Part shown: positions 3,277 through 63,916 of the stretch, piece by piece
Position numbering within the stretch: position 1 is the stretch's first letter
How the letters are laid out: each line of letters begins with the position of its first letter
Source of the DNA: Anaerolineae bacterium
GTDB taxonomy: Bacteria; Chloroflexota; Anaerolineae; Aggregatilineales; J027
DNA length: 64,000 nucleotides
Direction of reading: 5' to 3'
Assembly (NCBI GenBank): GCA_021463865.1
Contig: JAJTXY010000001.1
Coordinates: 369,896-433,895, forward strand
Notes under the pieces: generated by a model
The model's database searches: none
What the model was told of the DNA's origin: nothing
Seen by the model: the letters and a program-made list of their open reading frames with translations, nothing else
Program-made: the position numbers and the translations under genes

Positions 3277-3831
3277 ATGCGCTGGTATAACGAACCGCAG
3301 ATGTGGGCAGCACCAACCAACACGATTCGCTTTACAACCAATCCCAAGACCGATTTTTGGCGCAAAACCCATTCGGGAGCCATCGCTGATAATGGGCATT
3401 TTTATTATCAGACCGTTGCCGGAAACTTTACAGCCGAAGTGAAATTTAGCGGGCAATATCGAGATTTGTATGACCAAGCCGGATTGATGCTGCGCCATGA
3501 TGAAAGTACATGGTTGAAATGTGGGATCGAGTATGTCAATGGGGTCTATAATGCCAGTGTAGTCATCACCCATGATTACTCTGACTGGTCAGTGACCGCC
3601 CTCAAGGAAAATCCGGCGGCGATGTGGCTGCGCTTGGTCTGGCATCAACCCACCATCGAGGTTTATTATTCGCTGGACGGCGCGGTGTATAACATGATGC
3701 GCCAAGCCTATCTGACCACTGCCAATGAACTCCAAGTGGGTGTGATGGCCTGTTCACCGACAGGCAACGGCTTTGAAGCGACTTTTGAGCATCTCAAGAT
3801 TGAAAAACTTGAAAAGAATGAAAAAGCCTAA
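3277..3831 (+). CDS. DUF1349 family protein (concanavalin-like fold)
   Basis: The 184-residue product matches the DUF1349 pattern (relatives are sometimes called 'regulation of enolase protein 1'): a single beta-sandwich domain with the typical stretches DFWRKTHSG, NGHFYYQTVAGNF and DQAGLMLRHDESTWLKCGIEY. The family has a jelly-roll lectin/glucanase-like fold, but no enzymatic role is established. No signal peptide or membrane segment is visible, so it is probably cytoplasmic. ATG at 3277 is preceded by AAGGAAAAG; the longer GTG-started frame at 3229 overlaps the terminator hairpin and is unlikely. Its stop overlaps the stop of the convergent DUF4291 gene by four bases. Confidence 0.85.
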   Translation: MRWYNEPQMWAAPTNTIRFTTNPKTDFWRKTHSGAIADNGHFYYQTVAGNFTAEVKFSGQYRDLYDQAGLMLRHDESTWLKCGIEYVNGVYNASVVITHDYSDWSVTALKENPAAMWLRLVWHQPTIEVYYSLDGAVYNMMRQAYLTTANELQVGVMACSPTGNGFEATFEHLKIEKLEKNEKA

Positions 3832-33260: not shown

Positions 33261-34294
33261 CCGAAGCCACACCAACCAAGCGCTCAATCAACTGGAAACG
33301 CATGTGGAACTGGGGTCGTCTGATTTTAGGCGTAGGCGGTCTTGGGATCGTTATCTATAGCGTGTCTGAACGAGATGCGTTGATAGAAGGCCTACTGAAA
33401 GTCAATTTGTGGTGGGTATTGGTTGCCCTAGTGCTAAATTTTGCCGCCACCCTTGTCAAAACAGGCCGATGGTGGTTAGTGCTGCAAGGGAGCGATATTC
33501 CAAACCTGAAACCCTCCCGCTTATTGGGAACGTACCTAGTCGGTATGTTTTTTAGCCAATTTATGCCGGGGTCTTCGATGGGCGGGGACGCTATGCGCAT
33601 GGTTGAGATGAGCGCAGATTCTGGCAAAGCCGCTAGTTCAATCGCCTCGGTGATGATTGAGCGTGTCGTGGGCATGTTGACCATTTTGAGTACCGCCAGC
33701 CTGATTCTGCTGTTCACCAACTATGATGAATTGACCCTAACCTTTGAATTGGCAATGCACATCCTGTCAGTTGGCGGGATTGCGGCCTTGTTTGTCTTAC
33801 GAATGGGCTGGTTTGTTGAGCCATTTACCAAGTTGCTGACGCGCTTCAAATTAGGCAAGGTTGCGGGGAAGGTGGCCTCACTCAGCGAAGCGCTCCAAAG
33901 TCAGCTTGGCAGTGTCCGTATCTTGTTTTACATGGTTGCCCTATCCTTTTTGGCAAATGCCATGACCATGACGGGGGCTTATTTGGTGCTGATCGGTTTT
34001 GGTGAAACAGTGCCTTACTTTGCCTTTATACCGCTGATGTGTATGGCCGTAGCGGTTGAATTGATTCCAATTTCCCCCGGCGCGTTGGGCCTACGTGAAG
34101 CCACCTATGTCGCCTTTTTGACAGGCTTTTTGGGCGTGGCTGAATCCGCCTCACTGGGGACGGCCCTCGTTGTGCGTGCGATTAGCATGGTGCATGGTGT
34201 CATCGGCGGCCTTATTCTGGTCAGTCGAGGGATTAGTTCCAATCAGAGGAGCGAAGTCAACCCCAACACCACCGCGCCATCTGCGACATCCTGA
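33257..34294 (+). CDS. Lysylphosphatidylglycerol synthase-type flippase domain protein
   Basis: A 345-residue integral membrane protein of the LPG_synthase_TM (UPF0104, PF03706) family, with about eight helices. Family features seen: WWVLVALVLNFAATLVKTGRWW, LLGTYLVGMFFSQFMPGSSMGGDAMRM and ISPGALGLREATYVAFL. The domain is the lipid-translocating half of MprF and stands alone in many glycan loci; no aminoacyltransferase half is attached. Coupled by a four-base overlap to the glycosyltransferase, which suggests it moves or binds the lipid product. A second family member is at 57951. Ends before a strong terminator. Confidence 0.9.
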   Translation: MTEATPTKRSINWKRMWNWGRLILGVGGLGIVIYSVSERDALIEGLLKVNLWWVLVALVLNFAATLVKTGRWWLVLQGSDIPNLKPSRLLGTYLVGMFFSQFMPGSSMGGDAMRMVEMSADSGKAASSIASVMIERVVGMLTILSTASLILLFTNYDELTLTFELAMHILSVGGIAALFVLRMGWFVEPFTKLLTRFKLGKVAGKVASLSEALQSQLGSVRILFYMVALSFLANAMTMTGAYLVLIGFGETVPYFAFIPLMCMAVAVELIPISPGALGLREATYVAFLTGFLGVAESASLGTALVVRAISMVHGVIGGLILVSRGISSNQRSEVNPNTTAPSATS

Positions 34295-34301
34295 TAATTT
34301 T

Positions 34302-34335
34302 AGGTGGAGTAACCAAGTTGCTCCACCTCTTTTTT
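34302..34335 (+). terminator. Intrinsic terminator
   Basis: AGGTGGAG (34302-34309) pairs with CTCCACCT (34321-34328), followed by CTTTTTT. Ends the 32013-34294 operon. Confidence 0.85.
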
Positions 34336-34354
34336 CAACAGTTTAGAGGCTGGT

Positions 34355-34987
34355 ATGCCAAATCTCCCATCTGACGACACGCTGCAAAAAATCTTGACCG
34401 AACTTGAGCCAGAAAATCATCTGGGGGCACTTTTGACCGTGCAAATGGGTGGCACGCCGGAAGAAGTTCAACTGTTGCTGCAAACCACTGAATTTGATGA
34501 GGAGCGAAACGGCCTGCGCCCCACCGGAAGTTATATCATTCGTTGTTTAGGTGTACGTGAACATCGAGTCAGCGTTGGTTTGTTTAATTCGATGGTCTAT
34601 ACGGAAACACACTCCCTTTTGTGGAATCATAATTATCCTTTTCAGCAAGTCTATTTTAGCGGTATGCCCGATAACGTGGATGGTCTGATGCTGGAACTGA
34701 CCCAGTTATACGGACAGCACTATGGCAATTTCCGCACCCTTGCCGATGACCTCAATCGTGCTATGCCCCTAGGGAAGTTGCTCACTTCGGGGCGTGGGCT
34801 GTTGGGAGAAATGCCCATCCCCATGACCGAAAAAGTGCAAAAATTACTCGAAGGTCATGGCCTAGCCGTCAGTTTAATAGACTCTGACCAAAATCCACCT
34901 GAAGCGCAACACGCTTTGTTGGTGATGGACGACTCTTTTTTCATTGCTCAACTCTATAGTGCCGACCCCCTTGAAGGTAAAAATTAG
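34355..34987 (+). CDS. Protein of unknown function
   Basis: A 210-residue soluble protein with no signal or membrane helix. Mixed alpha/beta composition; distinct stretches are TGSYIIRCLGVREHRVSVGLF and NYPFQQVYFSGMPDNVDGLM. The central part would form a beta-sheet layer and the C-terminal third is helical. I recognise no family. It lies between a terminator and a histidine kinase gene (100 bases downstream), and could be read with the kinase, but no link is proven. Confidence 0.75.
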   Translation: MPNLPSDDTLQKILTELEPENHLGALLTVQMGGTPEEVQLLLQTTEFDEERNGLRPTGSYIIRCLGVREHRVSVGLFNSMVYTETHSLLWNHNYPFQQVYFSGMPDNVDGLMLELTQLYGQHYGNFRTLADDLNRAMPLGKLLTSGRGLLGEMPIPMTEKVQKLLEGHGLAVSLIDSDQNPPEAQHALLVMDDSFFIAQLYSADPLEGKN

Positions 34988-35087
34988 CCCTTCTTGCCAG
35001 ACCGCGTTATCGTAGAGGAAGATAAAATTCAGTCTGCCCGAATACTGTTAAGCCTCAAAGGTTTTGGGTCTATAGAGAGGTCACTGG

Positions 35088-36389
35088 ATGACGCGCATAC
35101 AGGCTTTGACCGAAAATGCTTCCCTTTTTGAAATTGTTGACCACCCGACTACCCCTTTTCTCTTTACTGAACACCGCCATAGCCTCATCAGCATTAGCCG
35201 AGAAATCGAAAACTGTGTTATGGAAATCAGAACGCCCGTGCGGGTTTTTGCTGGTTTCCAAAAGCTGAGTTTTTTTCTGCCCCAGCTTAAACGTTATCGT
35301 GAAATTGCCCCAAAAGCCGAATCGGTGTGGGTTTTTGGCGTGCCAGATATTACCCCACCTGATGTACCGGGTATTGAGTATGTTTTATTGCCCCCCGATC
35401 ATTTATTGACACAAGAATGGTTTTTGGTGGTTGAATCTGCCGAATACTTTAGTGCGCTGGTCGCCAAAGATCTGAGTGGTCTAGCATTACCTCAAACGGA
35501 ACGACTGTTTCGGGGGATTTGGACATTTGACCCGGATTTAGTCAATCAAGTACAAAAACGACTGTCACACCTCGTTGGGCTGACTCCATTGGGTTATGAC
35601 TTCGACGAACGTGACTATGGAAGCCAAATGCACCATGTTTCCCGCATTGCCAACGATCTTATCCAAACCCTTGAAAAGCGTAATACGCAACTGATTGAGG
35701 CCCAGCAGCTTCACGAACAACTGGTGCAAATGCTGGTACACGACCTACGAAACCCTCTCAGCGGAATTATGGGCTACGTGGATTTGATTGAACGCGCCAT
35801 CCAACGGGGAGGTGAAGCTAGGGAAATTTTGGAATTTATTGAACGGGCACGAATTGGCAATGCCCAACTCAATATCCTTATAGAGAATATGCTCGATTTA
35901 AATCGTTTACGGGTGGGAGCATTTCCGGTCAAGAAAGAAGTGATTACGCTTGGGCCATTTTTTGAAGCAATACAGCGTCAGTTTTTGGGGATGGCCCAAC
36001 TCCATGACAATACCCTCCAAGTTGTACTAGCCTCTCCAGATTTGACGGTTTCGGCAGACCGCAATATTTTGACGCGCATATTGAGCAATTTGTTGAGTAA
36101 CGCCATTCGTCACACGCGCAAAGGGGAAGTTCGTCTGGAAGCAAGGCGCGATCAGCGGCGAGGCTGTACGCAAATAACCGTCGCGGATACGGGTGAAGGC
36201 ATTTCCCCCACTGAAGTGAACCGTATATTTGACCCCTATTATCAAGGCGAAAATCGGCGTACCAAAGGCGCGGCGGGCTTGGGCCTCACCTTCTGTAAAC
36301 AGGCCGTCGAAGCACAGGGCGGTGTGATTTGGGTCGAAAGCGAGATTGGCAAGGGTAGCGCGTTTCACATTCGATTGCCGAAAGTATAA
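35088..36389 (+). CDS. DICT-domain sensor histidine kinase
   Basis: A 433-residue cytoplasmic sensor kinase. Residues 1 to about 190 match the DICT domain (found with diguanylate cyclases and two-component proteins): SREIENCVMEIRTPVRVFAGFQ, LKRYREIAPKAESVWVFGVPD. A short coiled coil (about 185-215) precedes HisKA with phospho-acceptor His218 in LVHDLRNPLSG, then the ATPase domain with N box RILSNLLSNAIRHT, ADTGEGISP (G1) and GAAGLGLTFCKQAVEA (G2). No response regulator is nearby, so it is an orphan kinase. DICT is proposed to sense light or redox in some contexts; the ligand here is unknown. GAGAGG precedes the ATG. Confidence 0.93.
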   Translation: MTRIQALTENASLFEIVDHPTTPFLFTEHRHSLISISREIENCVMEIRTPVRVFAGFQKLSFFLPQLKRYREIAPKAESVWVFGVPDITPPDVPGIEYVLLPPDHLLTQEWFLVVESAEYFSALVAKDLSGLALPQTERLFRGIWTFDPDLVNQVQKRLSHLVGLTPLGYDFDERDYGSQMHHVSRIANDLIQTLEKRNTQLIEAQQLHEQLVQMLVHDLRNPLSGIMGYVDLIERAIQRGGEAREILEFIERARIGNAQLNILIENMLDLNRLRVGAFPVKKEVITLGPFFEAIQRQFLGMAQLHDNTLQVVLASPDLTVSADRNILTRILSNLLSNAIRHTRKGEVRLEARRDQRRGCTQITVADTGEGISPTEVNRIFDPYYQGENRRTKGAAGLGLTFCKQAVEAQGGVIWVESEIGKGSAFHIRLPKV

Positions 36390-36422
36390 TATTTTTGTCT
36401 ATATCGGATGAGGAAATTGAAG

Positions 36423-37592
36423 ATGCAAAAGCTAACCGCTGCTGATCTAGTTGCCCAAATTAGCCGGCTTGATAACAACAGATGGTATCTTTACCCTAGT
36501 GAAATTTCTCAACTCAAAATCACCAAAATAGTTGAACCGGAAGGCCCTATTAAATTTGTGAGTATAAATCTCAAGAAAGAGGATGCCAAAGAACGCTCTG
36601 GCAGTATTAGCTCTAGCCAGTTAGCTAGAATAGCTTCGGCATTTTCAAATAAACCTGATTATCCAATTCATATAGATCGCGTTTTTAGTGCAAGCAGCAA
36701 CAGTAGATCTGCCCTAGAGACTTTACTTGCATACACTCCGCATTTTTATATATGTTATACCAGATTCGGATAAACAGTCGCTTTTCAGAACAATGGGTTT
36801 AAACCCATTGTTGAAGCGATATAGCTATCATTCACCCGAATTTGGTATTACTTGCAACGTGCTGATGTATACACAGGCGAAACCTCTGATAAAAAACTGA
36901 AGCATATTATGTGGCGTCCATCTGAGGCACATGCTCTCGGTCAAATAGTCAAAGAAAAAGAATATCGACAGGTAATCACGGAAATCGAGCTTGGGGTTGA
37001 CTTTGGGCATATTCAGTTAAGTCCCAATCAGCTTTCAAATGAGTTTGACTCCATTGAAGCAAAAAGAACCCACACACAAATGCAAATTGCTCTTATCGAA
37101 ATTGGCAATGCGCTTGGTTTTCGGACTTGGATTGCGAAAAATGACCGCAGTATCGAGGTGGGCGAGTCTAAATTAGGTAGCCTGTTTGGTGTTGTTCAGT
37201 CTTTGGAAGAAATTCCTATTTTGTATAAGCCAGAAATCCGTGATTCAGCCTCTCTTGTGGATTGTATATGGTTTGCCGACAATGGTGATCGTATTCCTGC
37301 CATTATTGAAATTGAGCACAGCACTGGGGTTACATCGGGTTTAACTCGGATGAAAAAACTAAAGGATACATTTCCATCAATTTCAGCAACATTTGCCGTT
37401 GTTGCACCTAATGAACTTCGTAATAAAGTGATTACTGAAGCCAATCAGAAGGTTTTTCGTGATTTACGGGCAAGGTATATGCCGTACTCAACCATCCGAG
37501 AACTCTATGGTCTTATGCAACGATACTCATTTTCTGGCCTTGTGGATCATTCTTTTATCAACGCATTTATGGAGAGGGTAGTAGAGGAATAA
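36423..37592 (+). pseudogene. Restriction endonuclease-like gene interrupted by a MITE
   Basis: Seen: an N-terminal frame (36423-36773) ends at an in-frame TAA inside a 90-bp palindromic element, and the same frame reopens at 36849 and runs to 37592. Deleting the element plus one TTA copy joins HFYICY to LQRADVYTG and gives one 358-residue protein. Its C-terminal part has HTQMQ, TWIAKND and a likely nuclease core D249...E265-I-E267, a D...ExE arrangement like that of BamHI. It precedes a DNA methyltransferase by 58 bases, so a type II restriction enzyme is the best reading; recognition site unknown. AGGAAA lies six bases before ATG 36423. As it stands the enzyme should be inactive unless the stop is bypassed or a C-terminal fragment is made. 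Confidence 0.8.
36758..36847. mobile_element. 90-bp MITE-like palindromic element
   Basis: Terminal inverted repeats TACCAGATTCGG / CCGAATTTGGTA (one mismatch) and a perfect 24-bp central palindrome at 36789-36812 (AACAATGGGTTT and its complement); the arms between also pair (TCGCTT with AAGCGA). TTA flanks both sides (36755-36757, 36848-36850) as a likely target duplication; a TA duplication with a 91-bp element is equally consistent. Too small to encode a transposase, so moved in trans. The 93-bp addition keeps the host frame but adds a stop. Confidence 0.85.
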
Positions 37593-37650
37593 TCCAAATT
37601 ATTGTAAAATACGCACAGATGGTCGAAAAGAATAGGTATAGGTTACACTG

Positions 37651-38616
37651 ATGGTTGAGATCAAAGATTTATTGGATAAAGTCCATCTTTCTGATGCGCT
37701 CAGTTTTTTGCGTTCAATGCCTACTGAATCCGTTAATTCAGTCATCACTTCTCCACCTTATTTTGGACAGCGTGATTATGGTTCAGATAAGCAGATTGGT
37801 TTAGAAATACACCCAGATGATTATATTAAAGCTCTCGTAGAGGTCTTTAGAGAAGCCCGTCGGGTCTTGAAAAAAGATGGTACGTTTTGGCTCAATATTG
37901 GCGATAACTATGTGGGGGCGACCAGTCAGCATCGAGAAGGGGGGTCTCAAGGAAAGACATCACGTTATAGCCGCAAACATATGAATGGGATTCCTACTGA
38001 TGGGCGGGGAGACCGTAACCGAACGTTTTATGCGATGGGTTTGCCTATGAAAAGCCTTGTAGGGATGCCTTGGCGAGTGGCATTTGCTTTACAAAGCGAT
38101 GGTTGGATTTTACGTTGCGATATTATTTGGCATCGCCCTTCAACTGCCGAAAGCGTTAAAGACCGTCCAACACACGCACATGAATATATTTTCATGTTCT
38201 CTAAAAATCAACGCTACTATTATGACCGAAAACATATGCTAACTCCTACCGGCGCAAATATTCAATCGGTTTGGAAAGTTGCAGGCAGCCCCTTTACAGG
38301 TGCTCATTTTGCTGTTTTCCCAACAGAGCTAATTGAACCAATTGTATTGGCGTCATCCCCTGAAGATGGAGTAGTTCTTGATCCCTTTGCCGGTTCAGGT
38401 ACGGTAGGCGTGGTGTGTCGCCAACATCAACGCCACTACGTCTTATGCGATGTGAACCCTGATATTGTTCAGTTGGCACAAACGCGAGTCATTCAAGGGA
38501 TAACTGCTAATGACAAAAAGCGGCTGACCGAAAAGCGAATAGTGGCTTTGCCTGTTCCTGCCGAAAAGCCGGAGATCAAGAAAATTGTACCCGAACCGTT
38601 GCCATTTCCATTCTAG
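37651..38616 (+). CDS. DNA methyltransferase, beta class (N4-cytosine or N6-adenine)
   Basis: A 321-residue site-specific DNA methyltransferase using S-adenosylmethionine. Catalytic motif IV TSPPY (residues 33-37, in TSPPYFGQRDYG) comes before the AdoMet motif I DPFAGSG (244-250), the order of class beta. SPPY is typical of N4-cytosine enzymes, though some N6-adenine enzymes carry it. The region between (about 90-220) includes ILRCDIIWHRPSTAESVKDRP and the probable target-recognition part. It follows the broken endonuclease gene by 58 bases. With the endonuclease interrupted, it may now act as a solitary methylase. Codon use is AT-richer than in the flanking housekeeping genes, suggesting transfer. 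Confidence 0.92.
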   Translation: MVEIKDLLDKVHLSDALSFLRSMPTESVNSVITSPPYFGQRDYGSDKQIGLEIHPDDYIKALVEVFREARRVLKKDGTFWLNIGDNYVGATSQHREGGSQGKTSRYSRKHMNGIPTDGRGDRNRTFYAMGLPMKSLVGMPWRVAFALQSDGWILRCDIIWHRPSTAESVKDRPTHAHEYIFMFSKNQRYYYDRKHMLTPTGANIQSVWKVAGSPFTGAHFAVFPTELIEPIVLASSPEDGVVLDPFAGSGTVGVVCRQHQRHYVLCDVNPDIVQLAQTRVIQGITANDKKRLTEKRIVALPVPAEKPEIKKIVPEPLPFPF

Positions 38617-38622
38617 GTTCTC

Positions 38623-38651
38623 TTGACAGTCCGCTTTTTTTGCAATATGCT
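38623..38651 (+). promoter_or_regulatory. Strong promoter of the thrS T-box transcript
   Basis: Perfect TTGACA (38623-38628), 17 bases, TATGCT (38646-38651), six bases after the methyltransferase stop. Predicted start near 38658. Confidence 0.75.
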
Positions 38652-62629: not shown

Positions 62630-63916
62630 ATGCTCACTGACGAACAAATCCAGTTTTGGGAAAATCTTCTTGCAGATATGGAATCAGATCAACGATTCAT
62701 GATTGAACGAAAGTATAGGGAAGAAATTCGTATAAAGGTACGTCCTGAGATACAGGATTTGTTGCGTCGTTTCATTACTGGAAAAATAGACACTGAAAAA
62801 TTGCGCTCCACCTTTGATGCAAAAACCAGAAAAGAATGGGATGTGTTTGGTCTCAAAGGACTATCGGGAGCTATGTTTCTCAATAAGCTAGTGAAGCATA
62901 TACCCGATAAAGCATTACTCACCGCAGAGCTTCGTAGTGTTATGAGGGTTCCTTCGTCTGCCGATCAAGCCCGCCGACAAATGCAAGGTTTCCAAACTTT
63001 TCTGGAGGAACAAATTGAAACGGGCCAAACGACGAGACGCTTGGTTGAACCTGCTCGGATGCCTGTCTTGATTAGCGCTTGTTGGCACATGCAGGATACA
63101 GATAGGTGGCCCATTTTTTATCAATCCAAGCGACAAACGCTAGAGGCTGTAGGACTATATATTCCTCATCAAGATTCAGCCGAAAACTATCTTGTCTTTC
63201 GAGATGTATTTTTAGCTTTGGGCAAGTCTCTTCAATTAACTAATTGGCGACTAGAAAGCCTGTGTACATGGTATCAAATGCAGTATTCTGGCAGCACTGT
63301 TGCCCCAGAAGAAGAAGCATTTGCCTCAGAAACGATATCGGCAACCGCTGATATGCCAATAATGCACCATTTGCCTGAGCGTGAAGAAATTGGGCACACT
63401 CAAGTTCAGGTGCTTCTTGCCAAGTTAGGAAAGCATTTTGGTCGAAAGATATGGATTGCAGCCAATGACCATAACAGGTCTTGGAATAATGAACGGTTAG
63501 GCGATTATAGTTTGGGTACATTGCCGGAATTTCCCGGCATTGGTCGCAAAACTCAGCGCATGATTGAACTCATTGATGTTTTGTGGCTAGAGGGTCGAAG
63601 GATTGTTGCAGCCTTTGAAGTAGAAAAGACCACCTCTATCTACTCAGGTCTCCTGCGTCTTTCAGATGTATCAATTACTCTGGGGAATTTTAACTTTCCT
63701 CTCTATATCGTAGCGCCAGAAGCCCGTTTAAAAGATGTTCGTGAGCAACTTTCTAGGGCGACTTTTCAGTCTTTGGAATTACACCGACGTTGTGGATTTT
63801 TTTCATACGAGCAGTTAATTCATGATTTCGAAACGATGATTAATTGGGCGAGTGACCCGCAAGTAATTGGGAAGTTGGCGGAATACGTGGCTGATAATAT
63901 CTACCCTGATTGCTAG
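62630..63916 (+). CDS. Putative restriction endonuclease-like protein
   Basis: A 428-residue protein without signal or membrane helix. The N-terminal 220 residues are helical and charged and I do not recognise them. The C-terminal region (about 255-395) aligns with the interrupted endonuclease at 36423: shared HTQVQ, KIWIAAND, IDVLW, AAFEVEKTTS, SGLLRL and YIVAPEA. The likely catalytic set is D316, E330 and E332 (D-x13-E-x-E; Lys333 follows). The gene is AT-richer than ugd. No methyltransferase is seen to its left; a partner may lie beyond the right edge. AAGGGG precedes the ATG. Nuclease activity is inferred. Confidence 0.6.
   Translation: MLTDEQIQFWENLLADMESDQRFMIERKYREEIRIKVRPEIQDLLRRFITGKIDTEKLRSTFDAKTRKEWDVFGLKGLSGAMFLNKLVKHIPDKALLTAELRSVMRVPSSADQARRQMQGFQTFLEEQIETGQTTRRLVEPARMPVLISACWHMQDTDRWPIFYQSKRQTLEAVGLYIPHQDSAENYLVFRDVFLALGKSLQLTNWRLESLCTWYQMQYSGSTVAPEEEAFASETISATADMPIMHHLPEREEIGHTQVQVLLAKLGKHFGRKIWIAANDHNRSWNNERLGDYSLGTLPEFPGIGRKTQRMIELIDVLWLEGRRIVAAFEVEKTTSIYSGLLRLSDVSITLGNFNFPLYIVAPEARLKDVREQLSRATFQSLELHRRCGFFSYEQLIHDFETMINWASDPQVIGKLAEYVADNIYPDC

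Follow-up and report, generated by a model that had tools for sequence, protein, structure and literature searches.

Very probably, a MITE that was likely mobilised by an IS630-type transposase has stopped the predicted restriction endonuclease (R) gene of a Type II RM pair in this bacterium, which would likely abolish cutting, and has left the gene of the adjoining methyltransferase intact. Judged from the sequence, loss of restriction is strongly supported. The window, which is the whole stretch of 64,000 nucleotides that we analysed, lies on contig C1 of a genome of 4.9 Mb in 59 contigs (G000). It was compared with relatives, above all with G001, from a different species of the genus (record JABFGB010000022.1, Chloroflexi bacterium isolate CFX10), and with P0001, an uninterrupted homologue of the R protein of 358 aa. 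The genes concerned are as follows:

36423..37592, + strand: predicted Type II restriction endonuclease gene, interrupted; 358 codons once the insert is removed (both pieces match PADLOC REase_II; identical intact gene in G001; restriction-enzyme-like fold of the C-terminal part of P0001)
36423..36773, + strand: N-terminal piece, truncated, ending at the TAA of the element (sequence, ORF list, PADLOC)
36771..36773, + strand: in-frame TAA supplied by the element (sequence, frame reading)
36852..37592, + strand: C-terminal piece, 246 codons from a TTG, with the whole predicted nuclease domain inside (ORFs, PADLOC, predicted fold)
37651..38616, + strand: intact DNA methyltransferase gene, 321 aa, N6_N4_Mtase (Pfam PF01555, 1.9e-48; PADLOC MTase_II, 3.5e-92; identical to that of G001)

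The two halves of the R gene matched the PADLOC model REase_II (PDLC03534) at positions 4-106 and 123-350, and P0001 matched the same model at 4-350 in one stretch. The neighbouring gene matched MTase_II (PDLC03387), so that both members are present and adjoining as in the PADLOC pair, but here, unlike in the model, the R gene is interrupted. Its frame from 36423 is also open from an upstream ATG at 36408. In the predicted fold of P0001 a restriction-enzyme-like domain (a moderate match) occupies residues 160-358, downstream of the insertion point (residues 112/113), which itself falls inside a strand (108-116). The locus has the marks of a Type II RM system, namely a nuclease domain (predicted, whether PD-(D/E)XK or other) and a DNA methyltransferase gene beside the R gene. 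Foldseek alone gave nothing at E ≤ 0.001 for the fold of the R homologue, and a local copy of Pfam gave no family for the R pieces or for P0001, P0002 and P0017; in the protein search, PF27126 was given for R homologues. A PDB sequence search with the C-terminal piece returned 0 matches, and one with the R family profile returned a single weak match (E 0.47), which we discarded. A Prp protease model (NCBIfam, E 0.005) on the R pieces scored far below its cut-off and was rejected as a chance match. The PADLOC matches and the modelled fold support the prediction that this is a restriction-enzyme-type gene. Elsewhere in the window, a 428-aa open frame (62630-63916) has a distant REase_II match (E 3.1e-7, residues 256-382); the window beyond ~62537 has no match in contig C22 of G001, and the contig ends where the window ends.

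The TAA of the element ends translation of the R gene. The truncated product would probably be inactive because the nuclease domain is missing from it, and the C-terminal piece would either not be made or be nonspecific without the N-terminal part. The methyltransferase would go on marking DNA as an orphan. Translation from an internal start could yet supply the nuclease domain. It is also conceivable, though in our judgement improbable, that the two halves work together: the N-terminal piece would combine into a working enzyme with a C-terminal one whose translation restarts at TTG 36852, or at the ATG of an HIMW motif. The C-terminal piece is open with the whole predicted nuclease domain inside, neither piece differs from its counterpart in the G001 gene, and among the matches listed four homologues of 226-227 aa start at the internal HIMW Met. 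These short homologues, however, may be gene calls on partial genes; the cut lies inside a predicted β-strand, and by eye a good ribosome-binding site was not seen.

A disarmed R gene is the reading that we prefer, and the insert that would disarm it is made up of the following parts:

36758..36847, + strand: 90-bp MITE (copy family with TNA duplications; missing from the otherwise identical G001 locus)
36755..36757, + strand: left copy of the TTA target-site duplication (sequence; single TTA in G001)
36848..36850, + strand: right copy of the TTA target-site duplication (sequence; single TTA in G001)
36758..36769, + strand: left terminal inverted repeat, TACCAGATTCGG (end-pattern search)
36836..36847, - strand: right terminal inverted repeat, TACCAAATTCGG as read on this strand (end-pattern search)
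36789..36812, no strand: 24-bp perfect palindrome in the core of the element, AACAATGGGTTTAAACCCATTGTT (sequence; same or nearly the same core in the 90-91-bp copies)

On the + strand the element opens with TACCAGATTCGG and closes with CCGAATTTGGTA, and its terminal inverted repeats are 12 bp long with one mismatch. With 90 bp of its own and 3 bp of TTA it adds 93 bp, so the reading frame is kept; the sequence-only reading had placed the element, its duplication and the in-frame TAA correctly. Within the 64-kb window, exact matches to ATACCANATTCGG were the two element ends only, and no further element copies were found there above chance (9 matches at ≤2 mismatches, against a shuffle mean of 6.0). 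The strand at 36750-36860 folds as a long hairpin, far more stable than shuffled sequences (z -6.7; 0 of 200 as good). The element is short, ends in terminal repeats and has no transposase gene, its longest stop-free stretch being 29 codons; as this stretch makes one of its six frames stop-free, peptide read-through in another frame is conceivable. These features support the assignment of the insert as a MITE with a target duplication.

The same assignment had been made in the earlier reading, and it was borne out by a family of sister copies and by the empty site in G001. A 12-bp end pattern gave 20 matches in G000 and 61 in G003 (30 of the latter were given loci), compared with 1 for the reversed control in each genome. 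Of 56 loci parsed, 29 gave element-like end pairs, in G000, G001, G003 and G004, so that the family is present in four of the five genomes of the genus and has the several copies in one genome or its close kin that are expected of a MITE; G002 had two weak matches to the element only. Matched 3-base flanks were present in 24 of the 29 pairs and all were TNA (TAA 9, TGA 7, TCA 5, TTA 3), and the five pairs with unmatched flanks are seemingly degenerate or mispaired. Ten of the 24 matched copies are 90 bp long, four are 91 bp, and ten measure 111-145 bp with other cores. At ten loci the common ends and TNA duplications enclose quite different cores of 111-145 bp, and the same ends seem common to several MITE sub-types. 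Copies of 90 and 91 bp both exist, and we therefore dropped the notion that selection had favoured an element that preserves the frame. G000 has a single full copy of the 90-bp sub-type. Among the candidates scored in 21 genomes, its own included (40 of 97 candidates in G003), the best full-length match that could represent a source copy was 82% identical; it is in G003, where the 44-base left half of the element is 100% identical. Of 24 joined sites, 11, the window's included, had a frame that stayed open for 25 codons or more on either side, and in six the frame reached 150 codons; at one locus the right flank measured just 83 bases. Interruption of a gene was the rarer result among these sites. 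One 90-bp sister copy in G003 (L080, 1260-1349) lies within a would-be 350-codon frame across the empty site.

The empty site was compared directly in G001. With the window flanks joined at a single TTA, the 2,155 bases from 36382 to 38629 match G001 letter for letter, and there the site is empty, with a single TTA, an open 358-codon R gene and an identical methyltransferase. The earlier statements that exact removal of the insert restores the frame and that the adjoining methyltransferase is intact are thus upheld, and the uninterrupted allele that was to be sought in relatives exists both as P0001 and as the G001 gene; a scan of the genome collection with P0001 gave one locus, the G001 record. 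The further statement that the gene has no other lesion stands against G001, from which none of the 1,077 gene bases differs; from P0001 the window allele differs at residue 27 (G to E) and residue 203 (Q to R). Of 109 other homologues, 88 carry G at residue 27 and 3 carry E, which is also the residue of both G000 and G001. Given this residue, the uninterrupted allele may be less than fully active. Among 110 aligned full-length homologues (drawn from 120 listed, of 541 found), an insertion at this place was absent from all 110. On the simplest account, the alleles split first and the MITE came into this lineage afterwards.

The likely mover of the MITE, as far as the contig ends allow it to be read, is an IS630-type transposase, which would act on it in trans. 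Contigs of G000 and G001 break off within a longer element that has the MITE's ends, ~90 to 130 bases in; on one side of it an open frame begins MRRLKIEPHLSVEELEAGYRQAT..., and on the other an open frame ends ...WLQDHPELVRSATCFHWWPAYA. A decayed copy in G002, with an internal stop, ties that C-terminus to a DDE_3 domain (PF13358, 4.9e-8), the last 22 residues of this remnant being the same as the IS end of G000, and some of the best plasmid matches are named IS630 family transposase. IS630 elements duplicate a 2-bp TA. Here the MITEs have a 3-bp TNA duplication and the outer trinucleotide was TNA at 9 of the 9 distinct IS ends examined, and because the TA duplication is not found, the partner is labelled IS630-type by its DDE_3 transposase alone. 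The element at contig ends in these two genomes, judged from nine loci, has a likely DDE_3 transposase and TNA, not TA, flanks. Of four DDE_3 places, that of G002 alone has an adjoining repeat with ≤1 mismatch; the other three, G000's included, have none at this threshold and were rejected as partner. Searches for a full-length IS by its DNA end (21 genomes), by DDE_3 (the 5 genomes of the genus) and by the C-terminal protein (151 genomes of the order, of which 6 matched) gave only ends cut off at contig borders, the decayed G002 copy and distant matches.

The element could in principle be a transposase-operated arming switch, an idea to which we give little credence. Precise exit at some rate, through the 3-bp staggered TNA, would re-arm a fraction of cells, so that restriction would flip and vary from cell to cell; the methyltransferase would always protect the chromosome, and disarmed cells would take up DNA more freely. 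The 93 bp that keep the frame, the perfect duplication, the presence of IS ends with the same repeats and the uninterrupted allele in G001 all speak for such a cycle. However, G001 most simply never had the insert, since none of the 110 aligned homologues has one, and divisibility of 93 by three is a 1-in-3 chance in a family with copies of 90 and 91 bp. In the part of PMC4561436 covered here, which concerns eukaryotic elements, footprints are usual after excision of Mariner/Stowaway elements and excision of Tourist/PIF elements is generally precise. Because the likely partner is of the IS630 type, and excision of the mariner/Stowaway type usually leaves footprints, precise re-arming is less expected; it is conceivable by way of the 3-bp TNA duplication, but the type of transposase argues against it. 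Neither an excised nor a footprint allele was seen in the assembled sequences, and none of the observations calls for excision. That the element was spliced in from another copy during assembly is hardly credible, for although this is a 59-contig draft with related repeats at contig ends, the element is the sole full copy of its sub-type found in the genome, so that there is no other assembled copy to misplace, it has the duplication typical of the family and it lies in the interior of a contig of 433,895 bases. A consensus assembly may conceal mixed alleles.

The insertion of a MITE into the R gene, which we favour, would be the last of three steps in the history of the locus, for which two larger features were considered:

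33320..38629, no strand: tract that differs from G001 by 9 mismatches over 5,220 aligned bases (99.8% identity), amid ~90-92% synteny (alignment of the window with G001)
36388..38635, no strand: RM cassette, at a site of variable content that follows a histidine kinase gene; the site is empty in G002, and G003 and G004 have other genes there (locus comparison)

In G002, 22 bases separate the histidine kinase gene's end from the conserved block that follows, and because this site is empty the RM pair looks like an insert. The gene in the gap of G004 is a PADLOC NERD+UvrD defence candidate (E 8.2e-51) with NERD and UvrD domains, and the gap of G003 has an open frame with a start similar to that of G004. 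The variable-site loci compared were 36388-38635 of the window and L073, L106 and L107, the RM pair being found in G000 and G001. In G004 (L106, reverse complement 3290-3340) a 51-base repeat of window 36330-36380, the end of the histidine kinase gene, follows the inserted 421-codon frame at 84% identity. So few mismatches within surroundings of ~90-92% identity indicate that the ~5-kb tract was likely exchanged between two species of the genus. The RM cassette would thus have been gained first at the variable site of the genus, the tract around it exchanged second, and the MITE inserted third, in the R gene of this lineage.

We also compared the locus with published cases, each as far as the parts of the source covered here go. 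In PMC10359306, IS elements and MITEs inactivate cas genes by insertion; as here, a prokaryotic defence gene is hit by a mobile element or by a MITE derived from one, but the system there is CRISPR-Cas, whereas here the R gene is hit and the M gene of the Type II RM pair is intact. In Anabaena sp. 90 (PMC3542288), 15 of 147 MITEs lie in disrupted ORFs and the same genome has 13 RM-related pseudogenes, and the parts covered do not mention a MITE in an R gene or a letter-identical intact allele. MITEAba12 (PMC6382973), of 113 bp, has terminal repeats and a TSD length in common with the resident ISAba12 and disrupts hns; it is a gene-disrupting MITE with a resident IS partner, such as is likely here, but with a 9-bp TSD, another IS and another target gene, and as a new insertion in a laboratory strain. 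Going by titles, no report came up in which an R gene is interrupted by a MITE and its intact counterpart is known, which is no proof of absence from print. Mobile elements in defence genes, MITE-made pseudogenes and RM pseudogenes are already known, and the present case is a well-documented new example of them.

G007 belongs to a different genus of the family, and its relative of the R gene (L007, 1305-1800 and 1888-2784) is seemingly broken in a different way: its N- and C-terminal parts are adjacent, the middle is missing and the frame changes. The methyltransferase beside it is 73% identical to the one of the window (residues 8-301) and has one stop close to where the alignment ends; this genome is only 69% complete, which leaves room for sequence error. 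This second decay of R, of another kind and again beside a methyltransferase, fits the general idea that R is shed and M retained. In the two species, the same RM locus is identical over 2,155 bp bar one transposon, in genomes that differ by ~8-10% around it, so that the R-minus, M-plus state can be compared directly with its armed twin in an unusually clean snapshot. The locus is also a record of a variable defence site, and of a MITE family that targets TNA, in Chloroflexi-type bacteria.
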